NCBI RefSeq assembly: GCF_004784475.1
Contig: NZ_SRRT01000006.1
Location: 248,001-312,000 of the forward strand
Reading direction: 5' to 3'
Source of the DNA: Streptomyces bauhiniae
GTDB taxonomy: Bacteria; Actinomycetota; Actinomycetes; Streptomycetales; Streptomycetaceae
DNA length: 64,000 bases
Part shown: one piece after another, positions 42,296 through 43,271 of the stretch
Layout: each line of letters begins with the position of its first letter
Numbering within the stretch: the first letter of the stretch is position 1
Notes under the pieces: model-generated
Databases searched by the model: none
What the model was told of the DNA's origin: nothing
The model's input: the letters and a program-made list of their open reading frames with translations, nothing else
Translations under genes and position numbers: made by a program

Positions 42296-42313
42296 TAGGC
42301 CCTTTTGACCTGC

Positions 42314-42358
42314 AGAAATGCTGAGACCCTAACCTCCAGTTAGGGTCTCAGCATTTCT
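42314..42358. terminator. 20-bp perfect hairpin shared by bkdC and the BRO gene; copy of an intragenic sequence
   Basis: Arms AGAAATGCTGAGACCCTAAC and its exact complement, loop of 5. It can end transcription of both converging genes. Its core (GCTGAGAC...CTCCAGT...GTCTC) repeats in the BRO coding sequence at 43050-43103. Confidence 0.8.
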
Positions 42359-42380
42359 CGTTCATCTCTCACGCGCTTTC

Positions 42381-43271
42381 TCAAACGGTGTTCAGCACAT
42401 ACACCGGCGCCCCGCCCTCGGCTCCACCCCGCGACCGAATGCAGGCGTGCCGCCGCAACATCCGCAGACATTCATTGCCCCGCCGCACGGTCAATCCGGT
42501 CCGTGCCGCGATCGACTCGAGCGGCTCCCGCAACTCGCCCTTCTCCACGAGCACCGGCGCGATGACGACGGCCACCGTCCACACGTCCTCGGTCACGGAC
42601 AACCGCTCCCGCCAGCCGGCCAGTAGGGAGGCGGTGGCGGCGGGTCCTCCGACAGGGATGGCCGGGCGGAGGCTGAACCCATCGATCCGGTCCGCAATAC
42701 GCACCATCGCCTCGGCCATGGCTGTCTGCGCGGTGAGCATCTCCCTTTGCAGCGCGAGGGATTGACGCTGTACGCCCGCCAACTCCTCGTCCAGCTTGAG
42801 GTTGTGCGCCTCCAGCCGGACGATGGCCTCCGCGACCTGCTCCGGCATGGCGTAGGCGACCGGAGCCCCCGGCCCGAGGGGCTGCACCTCGGCCTCCTCC
42901 AGTGCGTAGAACCCCTCCCGCTGGACCGTCTCGATGACCTCCGCGACCCACTGCTTGAAAGGCGCGCAGGCGGGCTTGGTGCAGGCGTTGACGAGGAGGA
43001 TGAGACCTTGGAGATCAATGATCTGCAAGTCTCGGCGCCACCCCCTACCTGCGGGAACGCTGAGACTGTGACTTCCAGTCACAGTCTCGAGAAACTCTCG
43101 ATGGGCCTCCGGGACGTGATCGAGAAGGGCCTTACGGGTCGTGGTGTAACCCAACTTCTTGCAGACGTCCGCCGCCGGGAACCAGTGCGTCCCGTCCGGC
43201 ATCGTCAGCCTCCGTACGCGGTCTCCGGTCGCCGCGTAGACGAAGTCGCTGATGTCGATCGCCTCGTTCAT
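42381..43271 (-). CDS. BRO-family (Bro-N) DNA-binding protein
   Basis: 296 aa from ATG 43271 with GGAGGTGG upstream. The N-terminal Bro-N domain (about 8-120) has RRLTMPDGTHWFPAADVCKKLGYTTTRKALLDHV and LILLVNACTKPACAPFKQWVAEVIETVQREGFYALEE. The middle (about 140-190) is a likely coiled coil. The C-terminus (about 225-290) looks like a winged helix (LREPLESIAARTGLTVRRGNECLRMLRRH). Such proteins are phage antirepressors or element-borne regulators. No phage genes surround it. Codons 57-74 carry a perfect hairpin that recurs downstream. Confidence 0.82.
   Translation of the reverse strand: MNEAIDISDFVYAATGDRVRRLTMPDGTHWFPAADVCKKLGYTTTRKALLDHVPEAHREFLETVTGSHSLSVPAGRGWRRDLQIIDLQGLILLVNACTKPACAPFKQWVAEVIETVQREGFYALEEAEVQPLGPGAPVAYAMPEQVAEAIVRLEAHNLKLDEELAGVQRQSLALQREMLTAQTAMAEAMVRIADRIDGFSLRPAIPVGGPAATASLLAGWRERLSVTEDVWTVAVVIAPVLVEKGELREPLESIAARTGLTVRRGNECLRMLRRHACIRSRGGAEGGAPVYVLNTV
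43050..43103. repeat. Intragenic copy of the hairpin repeat in the BRO gene
   Basis: Minus strand GAGACTGTGACT-GGA-AGTCACAGTCTC with flanks, encoding roughly ETVTGSHSLSVPAG (residues 62-75). Aligned by eye to 42307-42360 it matches about 40 of 53 positions plus one gap, and both copies stay perfectly self-complementary despite differing stems. Confidence 0.8.

Follow-up and report, generated by a model that had tools for sequence, protein, structure and literature searches.

Within the window, the 64,000-nucleotide stretch of the Streptomyces bauhiniae genome analysed here, a BRO gene carries a palindrome inside its coding sequence and a similar one beyond its stop codon. What would keep a perfect inverted repeat inside a protein-coding gene, and is its counterpart after the stop codon there for the same reason? 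The initial annotation had described a hairpin within codons 57–74 that is repeated, with one gap, after the stop, and both hairpins are indeed present in the sequence. The features concerned are the following.

42381–43271, minus strand: BRO gene, 296 amino acids, with an N-terminal Bro-N domain (PF02498), a long middle helix and a C-terminal part
43122–43148, minus strand: codons 42–50 (YTTTRKALL), second helix of a predicted helix-turn-helix, from the structural model and covariation
43062–43088, minus strand: in-gene palindrome GAGACTGTGACT-GGA-AGTCACAGTCTC, codons 62–70, proposed binding site of the encoded protein
42314–42358, minus strand: 3′ palindrome with 20-bp arms and a 5-nt loop, 22 nt past the BRO stop codon
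42307–42360, minus strand: stretch of about 54 bp homologous to BRO codons 57–74 (relic or copy), ending in GCAGGTC

The BRO gene and its two palindromes

The encoded protein matches the PF02498 profile over residues 19–113 with an E-value of 6.5e-17 and 62.4 bits, exceeding the cut-off of 25.6, and is thus a member of the Bro-N family. Up to E 1 no second Pfam family was found in it, and with Bro-N as the sole family the gene does not class as a KilAC-type phage antirepressor. The gene is chromosomal; searches of phage and plasmid records with it returned three weak phage matches and no plasmid. An AlphaFold model of the protein, low in overall confidence (mean pLDDT 70.8, pTM 0.40), places helices at residues 33–40 and 45–52 in an apparent helix-turn-helix, residues 44–50 being the start of the second helix, and gives pLDDT below 50 to residues 63–78, which span most of the palindrome codons. 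In the model of a phage Bro-N protein, also of low confidence (pTM 0.39), the palindrome codes for strand 52–59 of a beta-hairpin. Searches for a solved structure related to Bro-N gave no PDB fold match at E 0.001 and no Bro-N match by sequence.

The in-gene palindrome is perfect, with 12-bp arms and a 3-nt loop. Ungapped alignment of 42308–42349 with 43047–43088 gives 76% identity, and once one gap is allowed the whole of 42307–42360 matches codons 57–74, such that the shared stretch of about 54 bp includes the flank GCAGGT. The resemblance of the two palindromes is more than chance. A search of the whole genome for further copies of the motif with up to two mismatches, the check suggested in the initial annotation, returned both BRO places and only one unrelated place, with 2 mismatches. 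With a looser motif in 56 other genomes, 24 of the 27 match rows fell in a BRO gene, a fragment of one or a 3′ copy, and 3 lay elsewhere. Because the motif sits almost only at BRO genes in these 57 genomes, without genome-wide multiplicity, the footprint of a dispersed mobile palindrome (REP or RPE kind), one of the origins first considered, is unsupported and was rejected.

Distribution of the in-gene palindrome in Streptomyces and phages

Matches to the BRO protein were found in 56 of 199 and 131 of 392 genomes of the genus; these matches, 80 further loci and individually fetched stretches gave 198 distinct coding sequences for comparison. Each gene was compared with 100 recodings that keep the same protein and follow the gene's own codon usage. 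A hairpin reached by at most five of the 100 recodings is carried by 123 of the 156 Streptomyces genes with at least 42% identity, and this result, together with the near confinement of the motif to BRO loci, places the hairpin beyond chance. The best hairpin of the region tops all others of the gene in 84 of 93 genes at 60% identity or more, in 39 of 67 at 42–60% and in 9 of 33 more distant relatives. Where the segment takes another form, in one case with four extra residues, a different palindrome occupies the position, its arms reaching 20 bp in L136, and a Streptomyces subfamily of about 36% identity (e.g., L138, L139 and L141) has no significant palindrome there. Compensating changes preserve the in-gene palindrome in Streptomyces relatives. 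Two loci, L024 and L025, combine the arms of the window gene with the reverse complement of the usual loop, which may be a trace left by template switching. A second inverted repeat, over the middle-helix codons of a few genes, was ascribed to common codons for LE..NLQ and set aside.

Phage Bro-N antirepressor genes, too, contain a palindrome in frame at this position, of other sequence, such as GGGTACGCA-n5-TGCGTACCC. Of 403 viral genes, 36 lacked the anchor motif and 227 were near-duplicates; their removal left 140 non-redundant ones. Within the 20 codons preceding the [SN]ExGLY motif, 73 of 139 beat the synonymous-codon null and 66 have no significant palindrome, against 2–8 genes beating the null in each of nine other segments of the same genes (n 82–140). 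The palindrome is therefore local, unexplained by the protein sequence and wider than Streptomyces. Codons that are exactly reverse-complementary occupy two positions in 51 of 76 canonical phage genes, compared with a mean of 9.8 and a maximum of 19 in 1000 shuffles. As for further copies elsewhere in the genomes of four phages, that of Tyrion has none, that of BearBQ has one place with 3 mismatches, and that of JBD68 has five places with 2–3 mismatches among the best six listed, plus two exact half-sites elsewhere; phage Jacopo has no palindrome. One Bro-N protein matched 1139 of 50,697 phage records.

Covariation of the half-site with the putative reading helix

Four residues of the second helix covary with bases of the half-site, namely residue 44 with base 9, residue 46 with base 7, residue 47 with base 11 and residue 50 with base 6. 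Among 255 protein columns, residue 44 was the best for base 9 and residue 50 the best for base 6; a palindrome-encoded residue came first for each of bases 7 and 11, followed by residues 46 and 47. The 89 distinct Streptomyces pairs of residue 44 and base 9 comprise N–A (45), T–G (26), H–G (9), N–C (4), S–C (2), H–A (1), R–G (1) and E–C (1). In the left arm, base 9 falls at the silent third position of a valine codon, which is GTA in 61 of 65 genes with N44 (GTC in the other 4), GTG in all 32 with T44, GTG in 10 and GTA in 1 with H44, GTC in 3 with S44 and GTG in 1 with R44; overall, GTA accounts for 244 of the 3576 valine codons of these genes. Base 7 is C in an arm of all 9 Q46 genes and of 2 of the 113 others, and base 11 is G in an arm of all 25 Q47 genes and of 5 of the 97 others. 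The Q46 change is found in the left arm only (7 of 7 distinct rows), which breaks the symmetry.

On a phylogenetic tree built without the palindrome region, the link between residue 44 and base 9 had nine supported independent pairs, on average 8.3 of them changing the same way and none the opposite way (median p 0.008). The 47–11 link (p 0.25) and the 46–7 link (p 0.5) cannot reach significance on the tree because only three and two such pairs are available, respectively. The phage set of 79 canonical genes was reduced to 65 by leaving out the 14 in which fewer than 5 of 7 bases pair; among these 65, distance between half-sites correlated with distance between the upstream helices (correlation 0.43, partial 0.45; 0 of 300 permutations), and no correlation was found for the segments directly downstream (0.08 and 0.07) or for one lying further upstream (0.07). 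All seven top-ranking columns for the phage half-site lie inside the helix. By these measures the inverted repeat follows the reading helix of its protein, as a cognate in-gene site would.

Helix-to-site pairs across families and in fresh genes

Cross-family counts were made on 329 genes minus 67 without a hairpin of score 6. GTCG accompanies all 19 NxRD helices (6 phage, 12 R-type and 1 distant Streptomyces) and 11 of 243 other palindromes; GTAAC accompanies all 38 NxRK helices (2 phage) and 28 of 224 others; and GTGAC accompanies 27 of 28 TxRK helices and 11 of 234 others. NxRQ is without a single partner: all 24 E-type genes carry TAAG and none of the 12 R-type genes does, CTA being found in most of the latter. 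The helix-to-site code is thus real yet context-dependent. GTCT was dropped as a mark of NxRQ, since 86 of 224 other palindromes have it. The second BRO gene of the window's genome (L006, G000:C13:102394-103317) has the helix NTRQ and the left half-site GCGTCTA, as expected for that form, and a decayed right arm.

The rules for prediction were fixed in writing before any fresh locus was retrieved. From 42 fresh Streptomyces loci, 2 unparsable ones and 17 at least 97% identical to earlier loci were left out. In the 15 fresh E-type genes, which fall below 97% identity to earlier ones yet are not independent of them because their nearest earlier relatives are 84–97% identical, residue 44 predicted base 9 of the right arm in 13 of 15, and the other rules held for K47 (9/9), Q47 (2/2) and R46 (10/10). 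In the two misses the right arm fails and the predicted base is present in the left arm. Both fresh R-type NxRD genes (L841 and L849) have GTCG. A palindrome was present in 26 of 37 fresh non-redundant viral genes, with GTCG in 8 of 8 of those with an NxRD helix and in 5 of the 18 others, four of them likewise with D at that position; a further three fresh viral NxRD genes lack a palindrome. Two rules that were also scored on fresh viral genes, for NxRM and NxRQ, lay outside the written predictions. The fresh loci contained no Q46 gene, and the fresh phage genes no NxRK or TxRK helix.

The 3′ palindrome and BRO relics

A 3′ copy was found in at least 8 of 198 distinct loci, a lower bound because flank length differs between loci. 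The refuting condition named in the initial annotation, that homologues lack either copy, therefore holds for the 3′ copy, while the in-gene palindrome is widespread. The window's 3′ palindrome occupies the place of the hairpin usually found 3′ of the gene in most relatives, CGCAA..TTGCG, of which 74 distinct cases with many G–U pairs occur among 165 genes. In the 3′ flanks of many Streptomyces BRO genes (e.g., L017, L024 and L034) this hairpin has a constant apex of CGCAA, 5–8 nt and TTGCG, with outer arms that vary; it was discarded as a BRO-specific element, given similar hairpins at some other loci. In L042, L046, L050 and L058 the 3′ copy lies beyond the usual CGCAA hairpin, and in the window, L007, L036 and L092 the CGCAA hairpin is missing and the 3′ copy has 17–20 paired bases per arm.

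Bases 7, 9 and 11 of the 3′ copy never all fit the neighbouring helix in the species with the replaced hairpin (0 of 4). In the window, the 3′ copy has CTAAC beside a T44 R46 helix; in L007 and L092 it has GTGAC beside N44; and in L036 base 9 fits, with base 11 a misfitting G beside K47. The initial annotation had offered two operators for the BRO protein as one option. For the in-gene copy this option is supported because the half-site goes with the BRO reading-helix residues, whereas an operator in each of the two copies was rejected, the 3′ copy being mismatched to the neighbouring helix. We infer that the 3′ palindrome is a relic of another BRO allele or copy, perhaps kept in the window's small clade as a terminator for two convergent genes.

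Decayed BRO pieces lie near intact BRO genes at −183 (L061), −978 (L097), −1301 (L052), −360 and −227 (L191) and −405 (L026) from the BRO start, those of L061 and L097 being scarcely more than the palindrome. Given these pieces beside intact genes, there is repeated turnover of BRO genes at one spot. L042, L050 and L058 have a third palindrome of the same core, with GAAGGGC-like added arms, about 130 nt past the BRO stop and before the next gene.

A candidate cognate site and alternative explanations

Counted over 82 distinct Streptomyces sites, the ten stem columns include, among 820 pairs, 756 that are Watson–Crick, 8 that are G–U and 7 that are A–C; the four core columns of 85 phage genes have 5 G–U and 7 A–C. 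The comparison hairpin, that found 3′ of the stop in many relatives, has 54 G–U against 10 A–C in 74 distinct cases, a count that leans on one column (38 of the 54) and becomes 16 against 9 without it. Having no excess of G–U over A–C, the in-gene palindrome is therefore symmetric for both strands, like a protein site in double-stranded DNA, and it behaves as a DNA element, not RNA. Neither hairpin has an Rfam match up to E 5, and a structured RNA element was rejected on both grounds.

The in-gene palindrome is probably the cognate site at which the gene's own Bro-N protein binds double-stranded DNA, a reading drawn from sequence comparison. The computed support consists of one fixed place in the domain, pairing beyond protein constraint, no wobble bias, and a covariation with the helix that predicts fresh genes. 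As stated in part of PMC4257102, the Bro domain is the DNA-binding part of corynephage P1201 ANT8. The BRO protein would bind the palindrome physically as a dimer, each monomer reading one of the two half-sites through its helix of residues 42–50. The site starts about 12 codons downstream of the helix codons, at the first strand, or the loop, of the Bro-N beta-hairpin, a region that may tolerate the protein changes forced by complementarity. Sitting about 190 bp into the gene, a bound dimer could act as a road-block to transcription, resulting in negative autoregulation, which we consider slightly less likely than not as the use of the site. The half-site is not enriched in promoter regions (2 found against 6.9 expected in 123 upstream regions), unlike a usual operator, and an operator in the promoter was therefore rejected. 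GTGAC-N5-GTCAC occurs at 13 places in the window's genome, the BRO site and 12 others, compared with 1 for the backward control pattern; thus the BRO gene need not be the sole target, and others are possible.

Several other explanations were weighed against this cognate site. The initial annotation had also listed RNA-level control, that is, a hairpin in the BRO message acting in processing, pausing or translational control. The sequence is able to fold in RNA, and the different 3′ hairpin of most relatives looks RNA-like, but the mispair counts of the in-gene stem (G–U against A–C of 8 to 7 in Streptomyces and 5 to 7 in phages) disfavour such a role beside those of the comparison hairpin (54 to 10, or 16 to 9 without its dominant column), and an RNA stem would not track the reading helix; we consider it highly improbable. 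Co-evolution within the protein, the helix contacting the beta-strand encoded by the palindrome and the DNA having no part, would agree with the adjacency of helix and strand along the chain in the models and with the high rank of the palindrome-coded residues 64, 67 and 68. It is barely credible, however, in view of the silent third bases that track the helix (GTA with N44 and GTG with T44, both valine) and the reverse-complementary codon pairs in 51 of 76 genes. Nor is an exchange of helix and palindrome as one cassette by recombination, so that they travel jointly without recognition, more than remotely likely: an equally near segment on the other side of the palindrome is unlinked (0.08 against 0.43), and orthologues show single residue changes paired with single base changes, although neighbouring BRO genes frequently show duplication and decay and the NxRD–GTCG pair in distant genes could be a cassette transfer.

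The palindrome might also persist without function through mutational upkeep, in which template switching during replication recopies one arm onto the other. Such switching can create, repair and keep perfect hairpin stems (in part of PMC8794818) and can homogenize arms and invert spacers (in part of PMC8604942); the reversed loop of L024 and L025, the few wobble intermediates and the still good palindrome in some decayed BRO relics (L061 and L097) agree with it. Upkeep alone, however, predicts neither that the palindrome tracks the helix across distant families and even at a silent base nor that it keeps one fixed place in the domain, and we judge it improbable as the whole explanation; template switching may nevertheless be the route by which both arms change together. 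The remaining alternative is a self-immunity or self-recognition site like aba of bstA, in which the protein would act on competing DNA and its own in-gene site would switch it off or mark the replicon. This explanation shares its core with the cognate-site reading, the palindrome still being the protein's own site. The aba element, as described in part of PMC8585504, lies within its own gene, appears DNA-based and is homologue-specific, and the Bro-N site is likewise in the gene, DNA-like and cognate, with promoters lacking the half-site. By the same partial account, though, aba sits at the gene start with direct CCCGCC repeats and not an inverted repeat, and the window gene is chromosomal, with three weak phage records and no plasmid found; self-immunity is thus an unlikely use here. 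The data support the site being the protein's own and do not separate autoregulation from aba-like self-immunity.

A wider model of the cognate site, which we offer as speculative and rather doubtful, would take Bro-N genes as self-contained recognition cassettes in chromosomes and phages, with helix and site within about 35 codons. Template switching would rewrite both arms in one event, so that specificity and target change together, and cognate pairs would turn over fast, leaving the relics beside Streptomyces BRO genes as a graveyard of past specificities. The site would then serve aba-like self-recognition between competing phages or alleles, beyond autoregulation, and the natural pairs would amount to a recognition code.

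Significance and comparison with known systems

Bro-N is a widespread phage and viral domain, and to our knowledge the targets of Bro-N proteins are largely unknown. Should every gene contain the site of its own protein, the target bound by a Bro-N protein would be readable from its gene. The natural pairs would likewise provide a recognition code for a domain without a solved structure found here, and what phage antirepressors and chromosomal BRO genes do could be tested directly by recoding a few silent bases. A survey of open-licence papers found no description of a Bro-N in-gene site of this kind.

Operators inside genes are known, such as lacO2 in lacZ and galOI in galE. Like these, the Bro-N site would be a protein site in a coding sequence, probably repressing by road-block; unlike them, it adjoins the reading-helix codons of the same protein at a fixed, family-wide place, and the two change together. 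Rickettsia palindromic elements are inverted repeats inside open reading frames. The mitochondria of Nematomorpha have coding palindromes, inverted repeats in open reading frames of which both arms code (in part of PMC6649704). The palindromes of both groups are numerous or dispersed, whereas the Bro-N site occupies one place in one family and tracks its own helix. With the Bro-N/KilAC phage antirepressors (PF02498), many of whose genes have the palindrome, the window protein has the Bro-N domain in common; it differs in being chromosomally encoded and in having no second Pfam match up to E 1.

The nearest tested precedent found, by analogy, would be aba of bstA, a cognate in-gene DNA element of a phage helix-turn-helix protein. 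BstA is a prophage protein with a KilA-N-like N-terminal domain, and the 63-bp aba spans the start of bstA, needs two direct CCCGCC repeats, appears to be DNA-based and gives self-immunity in tests (all in part of PMC8585504). Both systems thus combine a phage-type protein with an in-gene DNA element that is cognate to each homologue, a property that computation likewise assigns to the Bro-N site. Unlike aba, which extends across the start codon, the Bro-N site is formed by an inverted repeat over codons 62–70, in the middle of the DNA-binding domain, with a candidate function.
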